Shown here in pieces: positions 11,168-32,601 of a DNA stretch of 32,672 nt. How positions within the stretch are numbered: position 1 is the stretch's first letter; the number at the start of each line of letters is the position of its first letter. A program made the position numbers and the translations under genes. The stretch is from the IMG/VR virus record IMGVR_UViG_3300042365_000191, positions 1-32,672 of that record; one strand, 5' to 3'. Source of the DNA: a virus. The notes below the pieces were generated by a model, which did not search any database, was not told the DNA's origin, and saw only the letters and a list, made by a program, of their open reading frames with translations.

Positions 11168-12154
11168 TCACACCAGGATAGATCCAGCCAGGGCTTCTCT
11201 TGCAGCAAGCCTCGAGTCCGCGTCCACCATCATCCGCACCAAGGCATGGAAGCCTGTGCGAGGTCGCCAGCCAAGCAGCTCGGCGGCAACGCTGGCATCC
11301 GCCTGGAGCACGTCAACCTCGGCCGGGCGGTAGTACCTCGGGTCGATCTCGACGTGGTCACGGTAGTCGAGCCCAGCATGGGCGAACGCCGCTTCGCAGA
11401 ACTCCCGCACGGTATGCGTCTCGCCCGTGCCGATGACGTACTCGCGTGGCTCACCTTGCTGGAGCATGAGCCACATGGCCTCGACATAGTCGCCAGCGAA
11501 GCCCCAGTCTCGCCGAGCATCGAGGTTGCCGAGGTAGAGTTTTTCCTGAAGCCCGTGCTTGATTCGCCCGACCGCCCGCGTGATCTTGCGGGTCACGAAC
11601 GTCTCGCCACGTCGCGGGCTCTCGTGGTTGAACAGGATGCCGCACGAGGCGTGAAGTCCATAAGACTCGCGGTAGTTGATCGCGGTCGCGTGGGCGAACA
11701 GTTTCGCGCAAGCGTAGGGCGATCGTGGGTGGAACGGCGTGGCCTCGCTCTGCGGGGCAGGGGCGTTGCCAAACAGTTCGCTGCTCGACGCCTGATAGAA
11801 CCTCGCCTGCGGCGCGTGGTCGCGGATCGCCTCAAGCATCCGCAGGCAGCCGAGCCCAGTGGCGTCGGCCGTGTAGGTCGGCTGGTCGAACGACACGCGG
11901 ACGTGGCTCTGGGCGGCGAGGTTGTAGACCTCGTCTGGCTGGACCTCGCGGACAATGCGGGCCATCGCGCCGCCGTCGCACACGTCGCCGTGGTGGAGGT
12001 GGAGTCGCTCGAACTCGTGATCGATGCGGCCCGTGTTGAACGTGCTGGCTCGCCGCACGACGCCATGCACCTCGTAGCCCTTCGCGAGCAGGAACTCGGC
12101 GAGGTAGGAGCCGTCCTGGCCCGTGATGCCGGTGATCAGAGCGCGACGCTGCAT
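11168..12154 (-). CDS. gmd: GDP-mannose 4,6-dehydratase
   Basis: The 328-residue enzyme has the NADP-binding G-I-T-G-Q-D-G (9-15), the L-A-A-Q-S-H-V segment (79-85), an S-S-S-E-L-F-G catalytic loop (123-129), Y147-x-x-x-K151 (S-P-Y-A-C-A-K), and N-H-E-S-P-R-R-G (176-183), a very specific Gmd motif. It converts GDP-D-mannose to GDP-4-keto-6-deoxymannose. It is nearly full length for the family (about 340-370). ATG 12154 follows GGAAAG and overlaps fcl by 19 bases; an ATG five codons upstream is possible. With fcl it forms the two-step GDP-L-fucose pathway. Confidence 0.95.
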
Positions 12155-13047
12155 CGTTCTTTCCACCATGCGACTGTCTCGCGGATGCCGTCCTCCAGGC
12201 TTACTCGGGGCGTCCAGCCGAGCAGGCTCGCGGCCCGCGACGCATCGACGGCTCGGCGTGGCTGGCCATTCGGCATCGAATCGTTCCAGTAGACTGCGCC
12301 GGCAAATCCGCATGCGTCGGCGACCATGTCGGCAAGCCGCCGCATGGTCACTTCTCCGCCGCCGCCCAGGTTGATCGGCTCGGCGTCGCTGATCGTTTCT
12401 CCAGCCGCGACGATGCCGGCCGCCGCGTCGTCAACGTGAAGGAACTCGCGTGACGCGGAGCCGTCGCCCCACAAGACCACATCGCGTCCATCGCAGAACT
12501 TGCGAATCATCGCCGGGATGACGTGGCTCGACGCCGGGTCGAAGTTGTCGCCCGGGCCGTAGAGGTTCGTCGGGATCACGACCGCGCCGGCCATGCCGTA
12601 CTGCCTGTTGTACTGCTTGAGCAATTCGTAGACGGCTCGCTTCGCTACGCCATAGCCGGCGTTCGTCTCTTCCGGGTAGCCGCTCCAGAGGTCGCCCTCG
12701 GCGAACGGCGGCCTGCAGAACTTCGGGTAGGAGCAGACCGTGCCGACGACGACGACCTTCTCGACGCCGTGGATGCGGGCCTGCTCAATGACGTTGAGCC
12801 CCATCGCGAGGTTGGCGTAGGTGAATCGCCCTGGCTGGGCCATGTTCGCGCCGATGCCGCCGACCTCGGCCGCGAGGTGGTAGACCACGCAAGGTTTCGC
12901 TGCCGCGAAATACTCTGCCGTCGCGGCGGCGTCAGTCAGGTCGCAGCCCCATCGTCGTGGTCGCAGCACGTCGTGGCCCGCCGCCTCAAGGAGCCGGCAG
13001 ACGCGACGGCCGAGGAATCCGTTGCCGCCGGTGACGAGTGTCGTCAA
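12136..13047 (-). CDS. fcl: GDP-L-fucose synthase
   Basis: The 303-residue short-chain dehydrogenase has G-G-N-G-F-L-G (7-13) for [14 protein letters not shown] (56-65), G-T-V-C-S-Y-P (102-108, with C105 matching the catalytic cysteine of E. coli WcaG), Y132-x-x-x-K136, and S-S-H-V-I-P-A, whose His matches the other catalytic residue. It epimerises and reduces GDP-4-keto-6-deoxymannose to GDP-L-fucose. The start is a TTG overlapping the upstream stop as TTGA. No ATG near the Rossmann motif is in frame, so this start is needed to keep the first strand. Confidence 0.93.
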
Positions 13048-13361
13048 GGCTCGACCTCGTCTCTCGGCAGCATCGCCACTGCATCGCCCCACGGAATGAC
13101 CTCGACGCTGGCGAGCAACACGGCCTTGTCTGCCGATTGCCACATGGCGTGCAGCATCCCGCCGGGCATCACCTCGGTGAGCAGGTCAGCCGAGAGCATC
13201 AACCGCCCGTCTGTCATCACTCGCGGCACCGGAACGCATGCCGGATGGCCGTGGACCGCGTGCAGTTCGGCCAGCCTCGCGGCGAGGGCCGGCGTGAATA
13301 CGAGCGCGTACTGTTTCGCGTCGTCGTAGGAGATCGGAAGCGACAGTTCGCCGAGTGTCAT
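13044..13361 (-). CDS. Hypothetical protein of the tail/fibre region
   Basis: A 105-residue protein starting M-T-L-G-E-L-S-L-P-I-S-Y-D-D-A-K. It is mixed alpha/beta with a V-F-T-P-A-L-A-A-R-L-A-E-L helix and a V-P-R-V-M-T-D-G-R-L-M-L-S hairpin. No catalytic or metal motif is seen. ATG overlaps the upstream stop by ATGA. Its position between structural proteins and the sugar genes suggests an accessory virion or assembly role, which is inference. Confidence 0.7.
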   Translation of the reverse strand: MTLGELSLPISYDDAKQYALVFTPALAARLAELHAVHGHPACVPVPRVMTDGRLMLSADLLTEVMPGGMLHAMWQSADKAVLLASVEVIPWGDAVAMLPRDEVEP

Positions 13362-14607: not shown

Positions 14608-15915
14608 CTAGCGGAACGAAGACCAGAGGTAGGTATTGATCGCCGCGCGGGCGCGAGACGACAGGCGGGCGTTGGAGAGCGTGCCAGAGGTCAAATCGCT
14701 GGCGTTGGTGCTACCGCTCGTGACGGTCTTCCAAGTCTGATCGCCGGCGAGGAACGTCGTGGACGTGGCCGACCCGCTGCCCAGCCTCGCCGTTGCAATC
14801 GTCCCAGACGCGATGTCGCTTGCCGCGTGGGTGTGACTCGTCGCAGCGTAGGCCGTGCTGACCGAGATCACGCCGTCCGTGATCGTCACGCCAGCGCCAA
14901 TCTTGACACCGCCGAGGACGCTGTTCGTAGCGGTCGGCAGCGTGTATTCCGTGGGGATCGTGGGCTTGTCGTCGAGGTCGTCATACGAACCGCTGGTCGC
15001 CACCGTAGCCAGCCCGGTCACGTTCGCGGCATCAACGGTGCCGGTCCATGCGGTGTTCTGCGTCGTGAAACTGTTTCCTTGGGGGTCGTCATAGAAATCG
15101 AGGCTGTAGAGTTTGAATCCGCCAAGCGATCCGGCAATTGTTTCAACGCGAATCGGGTTGGATAAGTCGAGAGATCGCAAGCACAGGAAGTCGTCTTCGT
15201 CGATCGCGAAATATCCGCCAGACAGGGCGGCTGGTACGCCGCTGGTGATGTCGCCCCAGTCGTGAGCGTGCGACGTGGCCGCGTAGGCGGTCGAGACTGA
15301 GATCACGCCGTCCGTGATGGAGACGCCTGTGCCAACCTTGACGCCGCCCAGCACCGAGCCAGTCGCAGTCGGCAACGTGTAGCCAGACGACGCAGAGATC
15401 ACGCCGTCGCCGTCGATGCTGATGCCGCTCCCAATCCGCACCGCGCCTCGCGTGTTCGCCGCCGCCAGTGGCAGGCGATCCGCCGAGAGCGTGCCGCTCG
15501 TCAGCAGGCTCGCGTTCGTTGTCGGCGGAGCGGCGGCGATGACAGCGGTCGTGAAGTCAGTGATCTGCGACGCTGTGTGCGTATGGGAGAGCGGCGTCCT
15601 GGCGTCGCTCAACCGGGCGTCATTGCCTTGGCAGGCCGTGCCGGCCGTTGTGCCGTAACTGACGACGAGCGCGCCGCCAACGGTAGAGAGTCCCGCGCCA
15701 ACAGCCAGGCCGATGTTCGCGGCCGACGACGTGCCGGAGTTCGTGATCGGCGCAGAGACGGTGACTACCCCGGAAGACCCCGTCGGCCCGAAACCACCGC
15801 TGACCGCAACGTCCACCGTCGCGGCCGTGCTGCCGGCGGCCACGTCGATCTGCGTCTCGCCGGCGCTCGCCGTGATCGGGCTCGCGCCGCTGACGCTCGC
15901 GTTGATCTGCGACAT
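14608..15915 (-). CDS. Repetitive tail fibre-like protein
   Basis: The 435-residue product is low-complexity, Ser/Thr/Ala/Gly-rich and built of repeats, as in phage fibres. Two modules of about 45 residues share Y-T-L-P-T-A-T-x-S-V-L-G-G-V-K (one near 183-197, the other near 330-344) and each runs on into I-T-D-G-V-I-S-V-S-T-A-Y-A-A-T-S-H. Shorter S-G-T-L/I-x-x-x-R-L units recur at several points and are typical shaft repeats. ATG 15915 overlaps the upstream stop as TGATG, which excludes the longer frame. It probably binds the host surface; no enzyme domain is seen. The C terminus ends A-I-N-T-Y-L-W-S-S-F-R with no chaperone domain. Confidence 0.82.
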   Translation of the reverse strand: MSQINASVSGASPITASAGETQIDVAAGSTAATVDVAVSGGFGPTGSSGVVTVSAPITNSGTSSAANIGLAVGAGLSTVGGALVVSYGTTAGTACQGNDARLSDARTPLSHTHTASQITDFTTAVIAAAPPTTNASLLTSGTLSADRLPLAAANTRGAVRIGSGISIDGDGVISASSGYTLPTATGSVLGGVKVGTGVSITDGVISVSTAYAATSHAHDWGDITSGVPAALSGGYFAIDEDDFLCLRSLDLSNPIRVETIAGSLGGFKLYSLDFYDDPQGNSFTTQNTAWTGTVDAANVTGLATVATSGSYDDLDDKPTIPTEYTLPTATNSVLGGVKIGAGVTITDGVISVSTAYAATSHTHAASDIASGTIATARLGSGSATSTTFLAGDQTWKTVTSGSTNASDLTSGTLSNARLSSRARAAINTYLWSSFR

Positions 15916-22386: not shown

Positions 22387-22796
22387 GAGATCCGCACGGT
22401 CGTCCGTGCCTCCGTGCCCCACGTCTTCTCGATCACGACCTTGCCGATCTGCACGTCGTCCTTCCAGGCCACGCCATTGAGCGAGTCCTCGATGCCCTTG
22501 GCGTAGTTCGTGCAGTCGCCTCGCGGCACCGGCCTGGCCGACCTCGGGTTGAGCTCGCCGCTCTTCCGGTAGTGCGACGGTGGCCGAGCGAACACCAGGT
22601 CGATGACGACCGTCAGCGGGGCGTCGTCGATCGGCGTGGCCCCCGCAGCTCGAGCAGCTGCAGCAATCGCAGCCCGGTAGGCGTGAATCGGGTGCGACGC
22701 CGGCGTGTATGCGTGGCCGTGTTTGCCGCGCGTCGTGATGCGTGGCCTTGGCTGCGGCACGGGGTCGCCGACTACCTCGAACGCGATTGGTCGCAT
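22383..22796 (-). CDS. rusA: RusA-type Holliday junction resolvase
   Basis: A 137-residue nuclease with V-V-G-D-P-V-P-Q-P-R-P-R near 8-19 (typical RusA opening), and the catalytic block D94-C-T-N-Y-A-K100-G-I-E-D104-S-L-N-G with D113/D114 after it. RusA dimers cut four-way junctions, and phages use them for recombination and for resolving branched DNA before packaging. It starts inside the end of the serine protease gene (25-base overlap) with no clear ribosome site. Along with the RecT-type protein it completes a recombination pair. Confidence 0.92.
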   Translation of the reverse strand: MRPIAFEVVGDPVPQPRPRITTRGKHGHAYTPASHPIHAYRAAIAAAARAAGATPIDDAPLTVVIDLVFARPPSHYRKSGELNPRSARPVPRGDCTNYAKGIEDSLNGVAWKDDVQIGKVVIEKTWGTEARTTVRIS

Positions 22797-23560
22797 GCCA
22801 GGACGCTACACGTCGCGTCAAACTCTTCGCCCATCACCTCGTGATACCAATCGTGGTACAGGCTCACCCGCGTGTGGGCGGACTCTTCGCCGGCCCTGCT
22901 GCGAGTGCGTGTGCCATCTGCGGTCTTCATCGTGAAGCTGTTGATGCCTGCGAGACGCTGGTGAACGAAGAGCGGCCCGCCCGAATCGCCAGGTGCGATG
23001 CACAGCGGCAGCGGCGATCCGCCACGCATGGCCGGCAACACGATCAGCCCATGCTCAAAGCGGACGATCTTGCCCGTGCCTGCCCGAAGGGCCCCGTCGC
23101 CGTGCGTGTGCCCCGTCGAGAGCCTGCCGGTCAACCCGTAGCCAGCAACGCTGACCGTGTCTCCTATCGCTTCCTCGCCGCTCGACAGGGGCGGGTATGA
23201 CCGGAGGCCGAATGGTTCGGCAACCCGCACCAGGGCGATGTCGTGCCACCCGTAGTTGCCGTCTTGGTACTCGCGGTGGGCGAAGATCCGCTCCACCCGC
23301 CGGATGCCGTTGGCCGTGTGAACGATTGCCTTGGCGTAGCCCTCGACGACGTGGGCCGCCGTCAGGGCCCAGTGATCGGCGATCAGCACGCAGCTGCCGC
23401 AGGGCATCGTCCCGTCTGGCAGTGTGCCGATGATCTTGGCCGTGTACGGGGCGAAGTCTCGGCCGTACTCGAGGTAGCGGGCGTCGGGTATAGCGTCGTC
23501 GGTCGTGCCCGCGAAGGCCGACGACGCCCAGCACAGAAGGAAAATTCCCAGTGCCCGCAT
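22772..23560 (-). CDS. Secreted trypsin-like (S1) serine protease
   Basis: The 262-residue product has a clear signal peptide (residues about 1-17, cleavage after A-F-A) and the full chymotrypsin-like triad: H70 in L-T-A-A-H-V-V, D107 in W-H-D-I-A-L, and S193 in P-G-D-S-G-G-P-L. C54/C57 lie close to the N-terminal strand. This would act outside the cytoplasmic membrane. Such a complete exported S1 protease is not usual in phage genomes; it may be a host-derived cargo gene, a lysis or superinfection factor, or an envelope-modifying enzyme. ATG 23560 has no clear Shine-Dalgarno. Confidence 0.87.
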   Translation of the reverse strand: MRALGIFLLCWASSAFAGTTDDAIPDARYLEYGRDFAPYTAKIIGTLPDGTMPCGSCVLIADHWALTAAHVVEGYAKAIVHTANGIRRVERIFAHREYQDGNYGWHDIALVRVAEPFGLRSYPPLSSGEEAIGDTVSVAGYGLTGRLSTGHTHGDGALRAGTGKIVRFEHGLIVLPAMRGGSPLPLCIAPGDSGGPLFVHQRLAGINSFTMKTADGTRTRSRAGEESAHTRVSLYHDWYHEVMGEEFDATCSVLACDQSRSR

Positions 23561-23810: not shown

Positions 23811-23958
23811 GACACTTTTCGTCAGTTTGTGTGTAGTCGCGCTATCCGTGCTTCGTAACAGCGGGCCGCCGCGTCTCACGGCCGTGCGGCGCGAATCGCC
23901 GGGGCGTTATACAGCAGGGTGGCGATTATCCGGGTCCGTATAAACACTGGTTCTGTTT

Positions 23959-24303
23959 CTAACCCTCGGCCGTAGCGAGCAGTCCGTCGTGCCGAAACGA
24001 CATGATCGGAATGTCCATCCCGATCTGGCGGGCTGCCTCCAAAACGTCTTCGGCCCTGTAGTACCGCTCGCCGTCAATGACGACGCCACTGCAAATCGGA
24101 AACCGCTCCGGCTTGCGGTGTTCCACGGGCCGCTCTCGGCCCTGCTCGGCGATCCACGCCTCGAGGTCTTCCAGCTTGTACCTCACAGACTTCCCGAGCT
24201 TCGTCGTTTGCGGCCCCTTGCGAAGCCATGCGTAGCGGGCGAGGGTCTGCGGTGCAAACCCAAGGTACTCGGCCGCCTGCTTCCTGGTCATCAGTCGTTC
24301 CAT
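23959..24303 (-). CDS. Excisionase/AlpA-type HTH regulator
   Basis: A 114-residue protein with an N-terminal HTH_17 domain: L-M-T-R-K-Q-A-A-E-Y-L-G-F-A-P-Q-T-L-A-R (4-23), the wing K-L-G-K-S-V-R-Y-K-L-E-D-L-E-A-W-I (35-51). This winged HTH is shared by phage excisionases and AlpA-like activators. The C-terminal half (Y-R-A-E-D-V-L-E-A-A-R-Q) looks like a second small helical piece. AAAGGAG eight bases before ATG 24303 sets the start. No integrase is in the window, so excisionase function is unproven; a transcription factor is equally likely. Confidence 0.83.
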   Translation of the reverse strand: MERLMTRKQAAEYLGFAPQTLARYAWLRKGPQTTKLGKSVRYKLEDLEAWIAEQGRERPVEHRKPERFPICSGVVIDGERYYRAEDVLEAARQIGMDIPIMSFRHDGLLATAEG

Positions 24304-24329
24304 CGCATCGTCTCCTTTGGTGCTGCGTG

Positions 24330-24358
24330 AATCCTGTCGCAACGTAGCGGCCTGTCAA
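24330..24358 (-). promoter_or_regulatory. Candidate sigma-70-like promoter of the HTH gene
   Basis: On the minus strand TTGACA (24358-24353) is a perfect -35 hexamer, followed after 16-17 bases by a weak -10 (CAGGAT/AGGATT, about 24336-24330). It lies 27 bases upstream of the HTH start. A perfect -35 with a weak -10 suggests activator or repressor control. Confidence 0.45.
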
Positions 24359-24400
24359 TCGCTCGCCAAAGATTCAACCAGCGTCAATCAGCGTCAATCA
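24353..24400. repeat. Triple GATTGAC direct repeats overlapping the promoter
   Basis: GTCAATC (plus strand) occurs at 24354-24360, 24383-24389 and 24393-24399; the last two are in a perfect 10-base tandem repeat (GCGTCAATCA twice, 24381-24400). The first copy contains the -35 hexamer of the candidate promoter. The arrangement is that of operator or activator sites for a DNA-binding protein, most simply the HTH protein encoded just downstream. Confidence 0.6.
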
Positions 24401-24412
24401 GTGTGGCCCGAA

Positions 24413-24468
24413 ACAGAACCAGCGGATGAAGCGGACGGCAGGGCCGCCGCTTATCCTGCGTGTTATGC
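24413..24468 (+). other. attC-like recombination site 1 (cassette left boundary)
   Basis: Read on the plus strand: ACAGAAC (R''-like), nine bases, AAGCGGAC (L''-like), a short centre, GCCGCTT (L'-like), eight bases, then GTTATGC (R'-like). The arms pair fully as GGAT-AAGCGG-CGGC against GCCG-CCGCTT-ATCC, leaving only G24428 and A24435 extrahelical, both in the left arm. Unequal 9/8 spacers and two extrahelical bases in the left arm are the defining layout of integron attC sites. The expected cut is between G24462 and T24463. Confidence 0.72.
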
Positions 24469-24684
24469 CGTCTCCGTCTTGTCTGTCGCGCACATCAGCC
24501 AATCAACGTCCCCGTCGTTGAACGCCACGACTTCAAACGATCCGTGCCTGTCTTCATGCGAAATCGACATTCCGTGCTTGCGGCACACCTCAATCACCTC
24601 CGAGAGAAACGAATCGACGACGGCGTTTTCAACGTCTCCGACGTACTTATACGGCCACTCGCTTTGGCATTTGCCCCTCAACAT
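24463..24684 (-). CDS. Small acidic phage-type protein carried in the putative cassette
   Basis: A 73-residue acidic protein. The central part V-D-S-F-L-S-E-V-I-E-V-C-R-K-H-G-M, then S-I-S-H-E-D-R-H-G-S-F-E-V-V, resembles a small family I know from many phages (K-x-G-x-S-I-S-H-E-D-x-H-G-A-F), ending in D-W-L-M. Function is not known. AAAGGAGGA sits nine bases before the ATG at 24684, clearly better than any upstream start. Its TAA stop overlaps the left cassette junction, as the first codon-sized part of R'. The whole gene and its ribosome site fit inside the cassette. Confidence 0.76.
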   Translation of the reverse strand: MLRGKCQSEWPYKYVGDVENAVVDSFLSEVIEVCRKHGMSISHEDRHGSFEVVAFNDGDVDWLMCATDKTETA

Positions 24685-24788
24685 CTTGTCCTCCTTTGCG
24701 ATTGGCATAACCACGCGATGCAGCGGACCCGCGAGAGCGTCGGTAGGTTTGTTCATGGTCGTAGGTCGCGGGCCGCTGATCGCTGGCG
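24463..24788. mobile_element. Putative integron-type gene cassette, 326 bp
   Basis: The unit starts at TTATGCC (after the R' G of attC-like site 1) and ends at the R' G of attC-like site 2. The R'' of site 2 (GGCATAAC, 24704-24711) is the exact reverse complement of GTTATGCC across the left junction (24462-24469). In integrons the two ends of one cassette must match this way, because they are joined in the free circle, so this is the strongest sign of a real cassette. It holds one gene (24463-24684) on the minus strand, opposite to the usual gene orientation relative to attC, together with its own Shine-Dalgarno. Confidence 0.62.
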
Positions 24789-24794
24789 TTCTCA
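24704..24794 (+). other. attC-like recombination site 2 (cassette right boundary)
   Basis: Plus-strand layout: GGCATAAC (R''), nine bases CACGCGATG, CAGCGGAC (L''), an extended stem CCGCGA/TCGCGG around a 31-base loop, GCCGCTG (L'), eight bases ATCGCTGG, and GTTCTCA (R'). Arms GCGAT-CAGCGG-CCCGCGA pair with TCGCGGG-CCGCTG-ATCGC, leaving G24720 and A24727 extrahelical in the left arm, the same two positions as in site 1. At 91 bases it is within the usual attC size range. Expected cut between G24788 and T24789. Confidence 0.75.
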
Positions 24795-24938
24795 GCCTCG
24801 TGCCGCCATGTAGAGCCCGATGTTCGCAGCCGCGTACCCGGCGTAGGCGATGGCGAGCCCGTGCTTGCCATGCCACGCCAGGTCGCCGGCCACCCAGACG
24901 TAGATCACGCCAGTAAGAGCGATTAGCCAGGGTGCCAT
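24792..24938 (-). CDS. Small two-helix membrane protein
   Basis: A 48-residue ORF, M-A-P-W-L-I-A-L-T-G-V-I-Y-V-W-V-A, then a polar turn (D-L-A-W-H-G-K-H-G) and a second hydrophobic helix (A-I-A-Y-A-G-Y-A-A-A-N-I-G-L-Y). It is probably an inner-membrane protein with two segments and a short loop. The ATG lies three bases after the stop of the secreted protein gene, with GGTGACGC as a weak ribosome site, so it is likely coupled. Its TGA falls in the R' end of attC-like site 2. Function unknown. Confidence 0.65.
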   Translation of the reverse strand: MAPWLIALTGVIYVWVAGDLAWHGKHGLAIAYAGYAAANIGLYMAARG

Positions 24939-24941
24939 GCG

Positions 24942-25244
24942 TCACCGATACCGAATGACAGCGAACCACTGGCGACGCACCGGCGAGTATGCCACGCCCT
25001 CCTCGACGATCGGCCGCTGGCCGAAGAAGCAGCACGCCCGCCTTGCGGCCTCCGGCGTCGAACCGCATCCGATGCCCTCGCGTCGTCCACCGTTGCGGCC
25101 ACAGTGCCGCAAAATGCCCGTGCGGGCCATTTCCTCAGCGTCGTCCTGGGCCGAGCCAAACACGACCTTACGGGCGTAGATCGTCGTGTCGGCCGTGACC
25201 GTGACAGCGACGCAGGACAACACGAGAGCGAGCAGGAACCTCAT
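24942..25244 (-). CDS. Small exported cysteine-containing protein
   Basis: A 100-residue protein with a signal peptide (M-R-F-L-L-A-L-V-L-S-C-V-A-V-T-V-T-A-D, cleavage near residue 19). The mature part has four cysteines (about 48, 60, 71, 72), giving room for disulfides, and ends in R-R-Q-W-F-A-V-I-R-Y-R. GGAGGAT before ATG 25244 is a strong ribosome site. I do not recognise a family. A periplasmic or surface role during infection, such as superinfection exclusion, is possible but not shown. Confidence 0.75.
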   Translation of the reverse strand: MRFLLALVLSCVAVTVTADTTIYARKVVFGSAQDDAEEMARTGILRHCGRNGGRREGIGCGSTPEAARRACCFFGQRPIVEEGVAYSPVRRQWFAVIRYR

Positions 25245-25306
25245 GGCGAATCCTCCGTGACTCGGCCGCGACGGGCGGCCGCATGTGAATCACGGTAGGT
25301 GGGGCG

Positions 25307-25624
25307 TCAAGTTGCCAGCCGTTCCAGCAGCCCCCGCAGCGTGGCGGCGCGCTTGTTCGCTACCGGCACGTTGTGCGGGCCGTCGATCTTGGAAAAAAAC
25401 CTGACCGCCTCCCGCTCCTCGTCGGTGAGCGTGAACGGCGTCAGCGTGCAGTATCGCGTCACGGTGCCGGTGACGTATGGGCAGGGCTGCGACCGCAGCC
25501 GCTCCACCTCGCCGGCCGCCGCTTCCAACTGCAATCGCCAGTCCTCGCCTATCCGCTGCACGGCAGCCACGGCGTCGTCGCCGCCGTTGCGGATGCGGAT
25601 GTCGAGTTCCTTCATGTATCCCAT
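25307..25624 (-). CDS. Hypothetical protein beside attC-like site 3
   Basis: A 105-residue protein. The N-terminal part is helical and coiled-coil-like (W-R-L-Q-L-E-A-A-A-G-E-V-E-R-L-R). The C-terminal part, L-T-D-E-E-R-E-A-V-R-F-F and A-A-T-L-R-G-L-L-E-R-L, is a motif pair I have seen in small phage proteins of unknown role. AAAGGAGAGACG before ATG 25624 sets the start; a second ATG three codons later is possible. The gene starts 19 bases after the attC-like site, so its ribosome site, but not a promoter, lies between. Confidence 0.72.
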   Translation of the reverse strand: MGYMKELDIRIRNGGDDAVAAVQRIGEDWRLQLEAAAGEVERLRSQPCPYVTGTVTRYCTLTPFTLTDEEREAVRFFSKIDGPHNVPVANKRAATLRGLLERLAT

Positions 25625-25642
25625 CGTCTCTCCTTTACGCCC

Positions 25643-25691
25643 ACATAACCACGCGATGCAGCGGACGAGCCGCTGATCGCTGGCGTTTTCT
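25643..25691 (+). other. attC-like recombination site 3
   Basis: Plus strand: ACATAAC, CACGCGATG, CAGCGGAC, a two-base centre, GCCGCTG, ATCGCTGG, then GTTTTCT. The left block of 22 bases and the right block of 19 bases are identical to site 2, while the 50-base centre of site 2 is absent, so the two are close relatives with different loops. Extrahelical G25658 and A25665 occupy the same positions. At about 49 bases it is near or below the usual lower size limit. Its R'' (GCCCACATAAC) has no matching start in the window, so the left end of its cassette is lost, diverged or elsewhere. Confidence 0.65.
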
Positions 25692-26283: not shown

Positions 26284-27384
26284 TCACTCCTGGGCCAGCG
26301 GCATGATGACGCCCGTGTAGGGGCCACACTTGAGCAGCACCCGGCTCTGCGGGTCGGTGGCGTACACGTCCACCTGCGGCTCCTCGTCACCGGGGATGTG
26401 GGCGAGGAACTGCGACACATATCGCGGGTCCAGCTTCGTCGCGCTGGTAGTCCCAGCAGCCACGATGTCGCACTTCACCCGGCTCTCGCCGTACTCGCTC
26501 GAGCGGCCCGAGATCGAGACGGCATTGGCCGTCCACTCGAAATCGACGCCCTTCGACTGCTCGCTCGTGACGATGGCGGCCGACTGCACCGCCGACAGGA
26601 GCTCGGCCACGTTGCACACCGTGGGATCGCCGGCCACCTCGCCAAGCACGTCACGCCACCGGGGGAACTTTCCGTCGAGGAGCTTGGCCGTCACGGTCGC
26701 GCCGTCGAGGGTGAACCGCACGTCGCCGCGATTAGCCTCGACCTGGACGCTGCCGTCACCGTTGGCAAGCGAAGCCGCCACAAGAACAGCACGGGCCGGC
26801 ACGATGGTCTGGCTGTCGTCCACCGCTTGGTCCGTCTCCGTCTCCACGCACGACAGACGCCGGCCGTCCGTCGCCACCCAGGTCGGATTGCCCGCCGTCA
26901 CGTCGATCAGCACGCCGCCGAGGGCGAATCGGGACGACTCGCTGTCGCACGCGTACGCCGTCGCATGGACGGCCCGCCGGAACTGATCCGCAGGCAGCCG
27001 GCACACCGCCTTGAGCTCGCCCGTGGCGTCCGCAGGGAACTCCGCAGCGTCCTCGGTCGGCAGAGTCCACGAGCCCCGGCCCACCTTGACGACGATGGTC
27101 GCACCCTTCGGCGTCAGCGTCACCTCGTCACCGGCAGCCGCCTTCAGGATCGCCGCCAACTTCGCCGCCGGCAGCAGGATCGCATCGCCGTGGTAGTCGA
27201 TCCCCCGGTCGATCCGCACCTCAAGGTCGGTGGCAGAAAGCAACCCGTCGCCGAGGCGAACGTTTTGCAGCACGGGGCGCGGCGACTTCGTCGGCACAGC
27301 CCGGAGCACATCAGCCAGAGCCGCCTTCAGCGTGTCCGCGTCCAGCGTGATACCGCCCGTCTTCGTCTTCGTTGCAGTCGCCAT
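26284..27384 (-). CDS. dnaN: DNA polymerase III beta subunit (sliding clamp)
   Basis: The 366-residue product has the three-domain clamp layout. Pieces are T-L-K-A-A-L-A-D-V-L-R-A-V (17-29) and K-S-P-R-P-V-L-Q-N-V-R-L (33-44), a conserved N-terminal stretch, then I-L-L-P-A-A-K-L-A-A-I-L-K (about 69-81), V-A-T-D-G-R-R-L (the T-D-G-x-R-L signature of domain 2), K-F-P-R-W-R-D-V (about 212-219) and the C-terminal G-V-I-M-P-L. It should encircle DNA and tether a polymerase. As no phage polymerase is visible, it may redirect the host replisome. AAGGAAG before ATG 27384 supports the start. Confidence 0.9.
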   Translation of the reverse strand: MATATKTKTGGITLDADTLKAALADVLRAVPTKSPRPVLQNVRLGDGLLSATDLEVRIDRGIDYHGDAILLPAAKLAAILKAAAGDEVTLTPKGATIVVKVGRGSWTLPTEDAAEFPADATGELKAVCRLPADQFRRAVHATAYACDSESSRFALGGVLIDVTAGNPTWVATDGRRLSCVETETDQAVDDSQTIVPARAVLVAASLANGDGSVQVEANRGDVRFTLDGATVTAKLLDGKFPRWRDVLGEVAGDPTVCNVAELLSAVQSAAIVTSEQSKGVDFEWTANAVSISGRSSEYGESRVKCDIVAAGTTSATKLDPRYVSQFLAHIPGDEEPQVDVYATDPQSRVLLKCGPYTGVIMPLAQE

Positions 27385-27493
27385 GTCGCGCTTCCTTTTT
27401 CCTGAGAGAACAACCAACCAGAATCCCGAGGGCGAACGTCGCCGCCAGGACTATTTCGCCGATTGCCATAAGCACCAGGTCGTGGACGGTCAT
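27311..27493 (-). CDS. Small single-pass membrane protein overlapping dnaN
   Basis: A 60-residue protein. M-T-V-H-D-L-V-L-M-A-I-G-E-I-V-L-A-A-T-F-A-L-G-I is one membrane helix (about 6-28), followed by S-L-R-K-K and a polar tail that lies in the overlap with dnaN (74 bases, different frame). The ATG is coupled to the upstream stop by ATGA. Overlap of this length with a conserved gene makes the C terminus constrained. Function unknown. Confidence 0.6.
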   Translation of the reverse strand: MTVHDLVLMAIGEIVLAATFALGILVGCSLRKKEARHGDCNEDEDGRYHAGRGHAEGGSG

Positions 27494-31313: not shown

Positions 31314-31597
31314 CTCGCCACCTCGTGCTGCTGAATCAGTGCGCGCAGCCTACAAATGTCCTCGTCGTTGTCCGCATTGCTCGCCGGGTCCGAACGCTCG
31401 CTGGCGTTCGACTCGGCGATAGCAAGCTCGCGCCGCAGCACGTTGAGGCCGTGCTCGCGGTCGCGCAGCTGCCGCAAGTACGGAAGTGCTTGATCGACCA
31501 AGGCGCGAAACACGCCACCACGCTCATGCCAGTCGTCGCGGGCAAGTTCAAGGTCTGCAATAGTCAGGATCGCATCGAGATGTCGTGCCGCACTCAT
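31310..31597 (-). CDS. Small helical hypothetical protein
   Basis: A 95-residue helical protein starting M-S-A-A-R-H-L-D-A-I-L-T-I, with a D-W-H-E-R-G-G-V-F-R-A-L segment, and a C-terminal acidic stretch (D-N-D-E-D-I-C-R-L-R-A-L). ATG overlaps the recT stop by ATGA, so it is coupled to it. It could be an accessory of the annealing protein, which is speculation; no motif is seen. Confidence 0.66.
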   Translation of the reverse strand: MSAARHLDAILTIADLELARDDWHERGGVFRALVDQALPYLRQLRDREHGLNVLRRELAIAESNASERSDPASNADNDEDICRLRALIQQHEVAR

Positions 31598-32454
31598 GTC
31601 GTCACCTCGTGCTGGGCGGCCTCGTGGGCGAACTCCTGTCCACGGTCCTCGGGCACGGACGACAGGATGTCGAGTTTGCCGTTGATGAGCAGGAACAACT
31701 CGTCGGCCTGCGCCGGCGTGTAGAAGCCGCTCTTGAGCCGCTGCTCGACGATTCCCTGCATCCGCTCGAGCTGCCCGGCCGTCGCCGTCTGGACGTGGTG
31801 CCTGGCCTTCTGCATGTCCTCGGCTGTCGCGGTGGTCGCCTGGGCCGCCGTCTGGATCTCGGGCCGGTGCGTGGTGGGCGCGTCGAACTTGGGCCGCACG
31901 ACGATGGGCTCCGATGCCGGCGTGTCTGCTATTTCGTCCGGGTCATAGATCCCGACGGCACCCTCCCAGCCCACGCTCTTGAGCCCGGCCGTGATCGCAC
32001 GACTGCGGAGCATCGCCTTCGGGTGCTTGGCGTAGTTGTCGTTTGAAGCCAGGCCGGCACGCTTCGCGTCCTCGATCGTGAACGTCTCGGTGTGCTCGTC
32101 ACCGTTCGGGTGCTTGAGCACCAGCACGGCCTTCGTCTCGGTCAGTTCCTTGAACACCGCCCTCCCGCCGGCGCTCTTGAACCGTGCCAGCTGCGAGTCG
32201 GCCCGCTCGGTAACGGTGCCCTTGATGACCTGGAGCTTGCGGCAGGCAGCCATCGTGCCCATGCCCATCTCGCGGCCCATCAGCACAATCGCAGCAAACG
32301 AAACGCCGTCCTTGATGTGCGACGGGAGGAAGCCCGTTCGACGCAGCTGATCGCCCATCGTCACCAGTGAGCCAAAGTCGGCTGCGTCGTTGCTTCGCTC
32401 GGCGAGGGCCGTCCCCCTCGCGGGCTGCGTGTGTGTGGAAATCTCCGTCGTCAT
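31594..32454 (-). CDS. recT: RecT-type single-strand annealing protein
   Basis: The 286-residue protein has a RecT-like core over about 30-175: G-F-L-P-S-H-I-K (41-48), S-F-A-A-I-V-L-M-G-R-E-M-G-M (52-65), V-I-K-G-T-V-T-E-R-A-D (76-86), then P-K-A-M-L-R-S-R-A-I-T-A-G-L-K (145-159) and G-I-Y-D-P-D-E-I (168-175), which is the conserved end of the RecT domain. It anneals complementary strands in recombination or replication restart. The rest is a charged, low-complexity tail. AAAGGACG before ATG 32454 sets the start; the longer frame starting from a GTG is the leader. No phage exonuclease partner is seen in the window. Confidence 0.87.
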   Translation of the reverse strand: MTTEISTHTQPARGTALAERSNDAADFGSLVTMGDQLRRTGFLPSHIKDGVSFAAIVLMGREMGMGTMAACRKLQVIKGTVTERADSQLARFKSAGGRAVFKELTETKAVLVLKHPNGDEHTETFTIEDAKRAGLASNDNYAKHPKAMLRSRAITAGLKSVGWEGAVGIYDPDEIADTPASEPIVVRPKFDAPTTHRPEIQTAAQATTATAEDMQKARHHVQTATAGQLERMQGIVEQRLKSGFYTPAQADELFLLINGKLDILSSVPEDRGQEFAHEAAQHEVTT

Positions 32455-32479
32455 CTGTCCGCGTCCTTTCGTAGTGGAA

Positions 32480-32500
32480 AAACGACGATTCGTGTCGTTT
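32480..32500 (-). terminator. Terminator-like hairpin upstream of recT
   Basis: Minus strand: AAACGAC / GTCGTTT pair perfectly around a seven-base loop and the right arm runs on into two more Ts, giving a T5 run. It is 7 bp long and not very G+C-rich, so strength is probably moderate. It ends only about 25 bases from the recT start, an attenuator-like position. Confidence 0.5.
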
Positions 32501-32510
32501 CTTCGATATG

Positions 32511-32542
32511 AAAAGCCCGCCTTGCGTCGTGCTAAGCGGGTT
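32511..32542 (-). terminator. Second terminator-like hairpin, recT leader
   Basis: On the minus strand CCCGC (32540-32536) and GCGGG (32520-32516) form the stem, extendable by TT/AA with one bulge, followed directly by CTTTTC. It lies just upstream of the 32480 hairpin. Two such structures in tandem would end readthrough from the right or control entry into the early operon. Confidence 0.45.
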
Positions 32543-32562
32543 GTTCGTGCGTCCTTGCTGCT

Positions 32563-32601
32563 GCGGTTCCACCGCATCCTTCCGTTAAGCGATTCCACCG
32601 C
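32563..32601. repeat. Duplicated 13-base dyad, candidate operators
   Basis: GCGGTTCCACCGC (32563-32575) and GCGATTCCACCGC (32589-32601), differing at one base and 26 bases apart (about 2.5 helix turns). The first is an inverted repeat, GCGGT/ACCGC around TCC; the second is nearly so. They lie upstream of the two hairpins and recT and could bind a regulator of the leftward early transcript. Confidence 0.45.

Follow-up and report, generated by a model that had tools for sequence, protein, structure and literature searches.

Gene context of the array

The window analysed here is a linear viral record of 32,672 bases, encoding terminase, portal, capsid, DnaN and RecT-like proteins almost entirely on the minus strand, and the terminase, portal and capsid genes are those of a tailed phage (phrog_9, 1.8e-153; phrog_12, 1e-95; phrog_10, 1.2e-40). 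An array of integron-type sites lies downstream of dnaN, by direction of transcription; dnaN is a core gene with 37 related loci. The array had no match in 50,697 deposited phage records, and the closest DnaN in the deposited phage collection was 30% identical. Aragorn identified no tRNA in the window.

Several observations stand apart from the array. A gene for a trypsin-like serine protease (22772-23560; PF00089, 9e-19) adjoins its attI end. The ORFs at 11168-12313 and 12136-13143 overlap and match the same part of the nucleotide-sugar epimerase family phrog_540, a duplication. Among the TerL matches in G041, G015, G017, G022, G024, G005, G011 and G012, several cross one in-frame stop (TGA, TAG or TAA).

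The features of the array and its surroundings are listed below. Bit scores and E values are those of R1, an attC covariance model built for this analysis with the window left out, which is not IntegronFinder's model; scanner positions come from a geometric search for AAC-9-L''8 ... L'-9-GTT in which 10 or more of 11 positions pair. A slash in a sequence marks a cut.

About 23870-23951, plus strand: phage-borne attI, the primary cassette insertion site; two GTTAT/GATTAT-type repeats, core CGTATAAACACTGG/TT
23951-24462, plus strand: cassette A, 512 bp, TTCTGTTTC ... GAAACAGAAC with attC1; R' and R'' complementary at 10 of 10 bases
23959-24303, minus strand: cassette A gene, HTH_17 or excisionase-like DNA-binding protein (PF12728, 6.7e-11; phrog_66, 6.8e-12)
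24413-24468, plus strand: attC1 (scanner 24417-24464); 50.4 bits, E 2.6e-14
24463-24788, plus strand: cassette B, 326 bp, TTATGCC ... GGCATAAC with attC2; R' and R'' complementary at 8 of 10 bases
24463-24684, minus strand: small ORF of cassette B (MLRGKCQSEWPYKYVG...), AAGGAGG ahead of its ATG
24705-24794, plus strand: attC2 (scanner 24709-24790); 79.0 bits, E 9.4e-24
24789-25685, plus strand: segment C, the 897 bp that separate attC2 from attC3; not a clean cassette
24942-25244 and 25307-25624, minus strand: further ORFs of segment C
25643-25691, plus strand: attC3 (scanner 25647-25687); 51.4 bits, E 1.3e-14
26284-27417, minus strand: phage dnaN, sliding clamp (phrog_947, 2.9e-57; PF02767, 6.9e-19)
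31594-32598: RecT-like protein

The three sites are integron attC sites

All three sites have a common layout, with AAC, nine bases, an eight-base L'' containing one extrahelical A and a variable loop, followed on the right side by a seven-base L' and nine bases (GCCGCTG-ATCGCTGGC-GTT in the corrected reading). This 9/9 spacing is that of aadA-type attCs read from real class 1 integrons. An extrahelical G and an extrahelical A are present in the left arm at every site, and because such bases lie in one arm only, the sites have a single orientation. The loop is short in attC3 and long in attC2, which has a terminal stem (CCCGCGA...TCGCGGG) and is up to 97.6% identical to attCs of other phage contigs; attC1 is of the same type as the first attC in a host integron (L133, described below).

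An earlier note, made by inspection of the letters, had proposed these three sites as attC. Their positions, the G and the A that are extrahelical in the left arm, the identity of the second and third sites over blocks of 22 and 19 bases, and the one common orientation all held, R1 matching solely the plus strand. What failed was the right spacer, which had been given as eight bases (9/8) both here and for aadA-type cassettes; it is nine bases in both, so that the layout is 9/9. The note had also suggested a covariance search on the predicted strand, and with R1 this was passed at all three sites.

Within the window, R1 identified these three sites only, all on the plus strand, with nothing else at E values up to 1. 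Two class 1 integrons carry six attCs between them (aadA2, cmlA1, aadA1, qacL, aadB and catB3), and the same model found every one; none was in its training set. The geometric scanner gave 309 matches in 2.16 Mb of loci, compared with 0 in a reversed-sequence control at that score. In the window it gave three matches and no more, all on the plus strand. A fourth candidate (15808-15903, minus strand) had a score of 9, the level of the reversed control, and was rejected. Nothing in Rfam matched the window sites at gathering thresholds, and the pattern GCAGCGGACN{3,30}GCCGCTG had 0 matches in the window record, the gap lengths in this pattern being wrong. As a separate observation, a Burkholderiales attC-like palindrome (L140:2958-3051) matched the geometry on both strands.

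Relatives were sought with one arm only (AACNACGCGATGCAGCSGA). At least 119 stretches of viral contigs matched this pattern, and nearly all had the second arm (CGCTGATCGCTGGCGTT) behind it. Among 85,000 prokaryote genomes, 59 stretches matched the one-arm pattern, approximately the number estimated by chance, and the second arm was present in about a dozen of these, mostly from Planctomycetota. An alignment of 36 sequences without the window had invariant AAC and GTT, paired bases in 95.9% of cells and compensatory double changes in 145 cells vs 39 in shuffles. Four pair positions lie outside those required by the scanner; at these, 162 distinct sites had 623 Watson-Crick pairs, 3 G-T pairs and 22 other combinations, compared with 258, 54 and 336 in the shuffled control. 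The near absence of G-T pairs indicates that the hairpin is maintained as DNA and not as RNA, and an RNA function was rejected because G-U pairs are lacking.

One alternative is that these are look-alike hairpins, of RNA or DNA, with another role such as a terminator, a regulatory RNA or a replication or packaging site. In its favor, intergenic hairpins are common in phages and the sites lie between genes. Against it, G-T pairs are almost absent, cassette ends are complementary, R1 also finds class 1 attCs, and homologous arrays adjoin intI in hosts; we consider this alternative all but excluded. We conclude that the three window sites are genuine integron attC sites, as the earlier note had held, although their recombination by IntI remains an inference without assay data.

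Cassettes A and B and segment C

The left R' of an integron cassette pairs with its right R'', because the two are joined in the cassette circle. Over 129 pairs of neighboring sites in viral contigs, cassette ends matched at an average of 3.39 of 4 bases outside GTT/AAC, compared with 2.27 of 4 after the pairs were shuffled (maximum 2.54 over 1000 shuffles), so that the two ends of a cassette covary. Segment C departs from this rule: its left end is GTTCTCA, a mismatch to the GTTATGT expected from the right R''. Its ORF at 24792-24938 (minus strand) encodes a membrane-type protein of 48 aa and adjoins dnaN in relatives.

The gene of cassette A runs antisense to attC1. Its family matches were obtained on a 127-aa ORF (23959-24342), and we infer from the sequence that translation starts at 24303, behind AAAGGAG. 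The ORF of cassette B, for which the scan of cassette proteins gave no family match specific to it, extends upstream in frame, without a stop, to an ATG at 24756 within the attC2 loop; a start there would add the leader MNKPTDALAGPLHRVV.

A phage-borne attI

The array ends at an attI, and the left end of cassette A directly follows the attI stretch, with the cut inferred to fall between G23950 and T23951. Some 24 other phage loci have this attI at 72-79% identity over about 70-138 bp, with a different cassette after each cut. A nucleotide profile of 18 phage attI sites was searched over 558 kb of genome loci; in twelve Planctomycetota integrons its top-scoring matches lay on the same strand as intI, 200-320 bp beyond the 3' end of that gene (E 4e-7 to 0.055). 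Reversed sequence gave no matches. BLAST of the phage attI against the host loci returned nothing, whereas the profile search did match. We conclude that the phage attI and the attI next to intI on Planctomycetota chromosomes are homologous.

A separate search of all viral contigs with an attI-core pattern yielded 57 matches among the loci analysed. Counting the 41 with at least 1.2 kb of downstream sequence, an attC on the same strand was present within 3 kb of the core in 29 and on the opposite strand in 0. The bases after the cut matched the first R'' at 4 of 4 positions in 28 of 32 cases. The TerLs of contigs with attI sites range from 99% down to 27% identity, and thus several phage lineages are involved.

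The integrase is found in planctomycetes and not in the phage records

The window fulfills the criteria for a CALIN (three attCs within 1.3 kb, intI absent) and, of those for a complete integron, has attI and lacks intI: no TIGR02249 match, and hence no integron integrase, was found in the window contig. Nor was one found above the family cut-off in any of 41 attC-bearing viral records. When all viral contigs were scanned with host IntI, a single relative was recovered, at 43% identity (L228:5001-5945), and the fetched stretch that holds it had no R1 attC match. The lack of intI is therefore a direct observation for the records examined, and carriage of IntI by these phages was rejected for them; since many viral records are fragments, intI elsewhere in some phage genomes is not excluded.

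Among the genomes of one family (that of G042), 27 of 72 had an IntI above the cut-off. In a planctomycete chromosome fragment (L133), with IntI beside radical-SAM, ROK and ABC-F genes, the cassette at attI is an antisense DUF551 cassette closed by the attC type of the first window site, and the second cassette has an attC 97-98% identical to phage attCs; the MAG contig is 7.6 kb long, and the array is at its end. From the attCs, attI and cassettes shared with MAGs, we infer that the phages infect these planctomycetes, without support from CRISPR spacers or isolates. Because the window phage has attCs, swappable small genes and a docking site but no integrase, it most likely borrows the host enzyme to acquire and rearrange genes, as many relatives in environmental samples most likely do too. 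That host IntI recombines phage sites in trans is likewise inferred, with no recombination data, as is the passage of cassettes between phage and host.

Reversed polarity, putative start codons within attC, and cargo

The main ORF was antisense to attC in 118 of 129 viral cassettes, compared with only 5 of 25 in arrays of bacterial genomes (Fisher p 5e-13), which places attC at the 5' end of phage cassette genes. Both window cassettes are antisense and so fail the canonical criterion of a gene sense to an attC at its 3' end. All 36 attCs beside dnaN (36/36) point against phage transcription. This polarity is observed and not inferred.

The loop of 91 of 120 long attCs contains an ATG on the bottom strand, and 73 of these 91 have a Shine-Dalgarno-like motif. 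From the loop ATG, 90% of frames read 60 codons or more into the cassette body without a stop, compared with 13% and 58% in the other frames, and distances from the ATG to the attC end were mostly 40, 43, 46, 49, 55 or 58 bases, a single phase. The third codon position was the most variable, or tied, in every class tested. Leaders encoded from the loop would include MTNEVDEMSAASRGS, MSDDNTQDGAEPSPASAGS and MTHDVAGPSVASLGS. When bodies were shuffled among attCs, 79% were still open, which reflects the common phase and the tendency of GC-rich DNA to leave antisense frames open; this result weakens the frame test. A second leader class, that of attC2 in the window, uses another phase and lacks a clear Shine-Dalgarno motif, and the start within cassette B itself is better than the one in the attC2 loop. 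The open frames that begin in attC are shown, and translation starting there is inferred, there being no expression data.

DUF551 accounted for 13 of the 104 cassette proteins. Others were Dam, N6/N4 and C5 methyltransferases, a Mom-like modification protein, a PAPS-reductase-like protein and HTH proteins; most of the 104 had no known family.

Cassettes are gained, lost and exchanged among phages

Another phage contig (L108) carries the body of cassette A at 99.4% identity over 467 bp, with different sequence before G/TT. The aligned regions (window 23951-24440, L108:2300-2789) also have the same body with a different attC hairpin, a swap not accounted for by IntI cutting at R' only. Five contigs (L001, L056, L081, L087 and L097) share a 278-bp cassette that is 93-100% identical among them; its left junctions are exact and its flanks unrelated. 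Three cassettes are ordered differently in L047 and L056.

Close relatives of the window differ in cassette content. A contig with 91-95% DNA identity to it (L226) lacks 23811-24940, and with it cassettes A and B; it has no attI, and its copy of attC3 (L226:2594-2643) has a mutated right arm, GGCCGATG in place of GCCGCTG, which we read as a platform in decay. A relative at 82-89% (L227) has, at the same attI junction as the window, an N6/N4-type DNA methyltransferase cassette (L227:9008-9832) whose frame opens in the attC loop with the leader MTHDVAGPSVASLGS. Phages with related dnaN have from 0 to 7 attCs near this gene. We conclude that the cassettes are mobile in nature. The presence-absence comparison in related phages that the earlier note had proposed thus gave both gain and loss (dnaN neighbors, L226 and L227), and neither of the outcomes it had named as refuting, absence of a covariance match or fixed sites without gain or loss, was obtained. 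That note had not mentioned the attI, the lack of an integrase, the reversed orientation of the genes or the start codons within attC.

Two other explanations of these arrays were considered. In the first, the window is a passive CALIN, its cassettes and a partial attI having been acquired once from a host chromosome by illegitimate recombination and being now fixed and decaying. The absence of intI, the mutated attC3 and missing attI of L226, and the irregular segment C favor this view. However, attI and arrays occur in phages with TerLs as little as 27-33% identical, exchange has been recent (99-100% identical cassettes in new contexts), and the phage-specific gene pool and reversed polarity are unseen in host arrays; we judge a passive origin very unlikely. 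In the second, homologous or annealing-type recombination alone moves cassettes between phages, with attC arms as short shared anchors and IntI uninvolved. This would fit the RecT-like gene of the window phage and the change of hairpin on cassette A in L108, unexplained by R' cutting alone. Exact G/TT left junctions in unrelated flanks and pairing cassette ends are, however, IntI signatures, and attI is conserved, so that this second possibility is also given very little weight.

A proposed integrase-less integron platform

The explanation we prefer, and consider very likely (probability about 0.85), is that the window carries a phage integron platform which has no integrase of its own and is operated in trans by host IntI. 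The evidence is from sequence only, without recombination, expression or infection data, and recombination is inferred. The platform would consist of attI and, behind it, a series of mobile cassettes that each end in an attC. When the phage infects a Planctomycetota host, the IntI encoded in the host chromosome would work in trans on the phage attI and on the folded bottom strand of attC, cutting G/TT in the R' box, so that cassettes could be gained, lost and reordered on phage DNA and swapped with other phages and with the host integron. Phage transcription runs toward attI, with genes antisense to the canonical attC orientation and attC 5' of the gene. In many long-loop cassettes, the attC loop contains a Shine-Dalgarno-like sequence and an ATG, and we therefore propose that attC doubles as a translation-start module and supplies a short N-terminal leader.

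A bolder form of this reading, which we hold to be likely, is that diverse Planctomycetota phages maintain a dedicated platform, served by host IntI in trans, and have evolved reversed cassettes with attC as a start and leader module. In this form attC would be a mobile ribosome-binding-site, start-codon and leader module in fixed phase, and 5' modules and bodies would be exchangeable.

If this is true, phages are regular integron users and not accidental carriers, sampling small genes (DUF551, DNA methyltransferases, Mom-like) site-specifically in infection while the host integrase pays. Phage pan-genomes and host integrons would be linked in both directions, providing a source of cassettes in bacterial arrays, and the evolution of attC into a translation-start module becomes testable. 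The number of phage contigs with attC sites rises from about twenty to well over a hundred.

Comparison with known systems

The earlier note regarded cassettes as known mainly from chromosomes and plasmids, a view that needs updating because phage attC clusters have been published. Phage CALINs were reported in 2023, with attC clusters in 21 of 10,705 phage genomes, including Tetrasphaera TJE1, Pseudoalteromonas PH101 and Polaribacter P12002L; IntI1 recombined 5 of 6 phage attC sites tested, and the TJE1 and PH101 arrays were described as typical of bacterial arrays (Qi et al. 2023, PMC9892861). In the open-access literature searched, we found no report of phages with attI but without intI, nor of a phage-wide cassette pool, reversed polarity or start codons within attC. 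Phage CALINs are known (PMC9892861), and the attI-bearing, integrase-less platform of reversed cassettes would be a new form of these.

Like the window, the published phage CALINs (PMC9892861) are attC arrays in phage genomes without an integrase; unlike it, they are scattered single phages, whereas one attC family, an attI, a gene pool and reversed cassettes are common to many lineages here. A Shewanella prophage also has attI and an attC array in prophage DNA, but carries an intact intI in the same prophage, and the window phage has none. Class 1 mobile integrons share with the window the 9/9 geometry and the extrahelical bases, and the same model finds both, but their attCs are at the gene 3' end and intI1 and attI1 are carried along, unlike in phage cassettes. 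Finally, the chromosomal integrons of Planctomycetota (L133, L144, L152 and L135) have a homologous attI and the same attC family and geometry as the phages; they differ in having intI and genes mostly sense to attC (20 of 25), whereas in the phage records intI is absent and the genes are mostly antisense.
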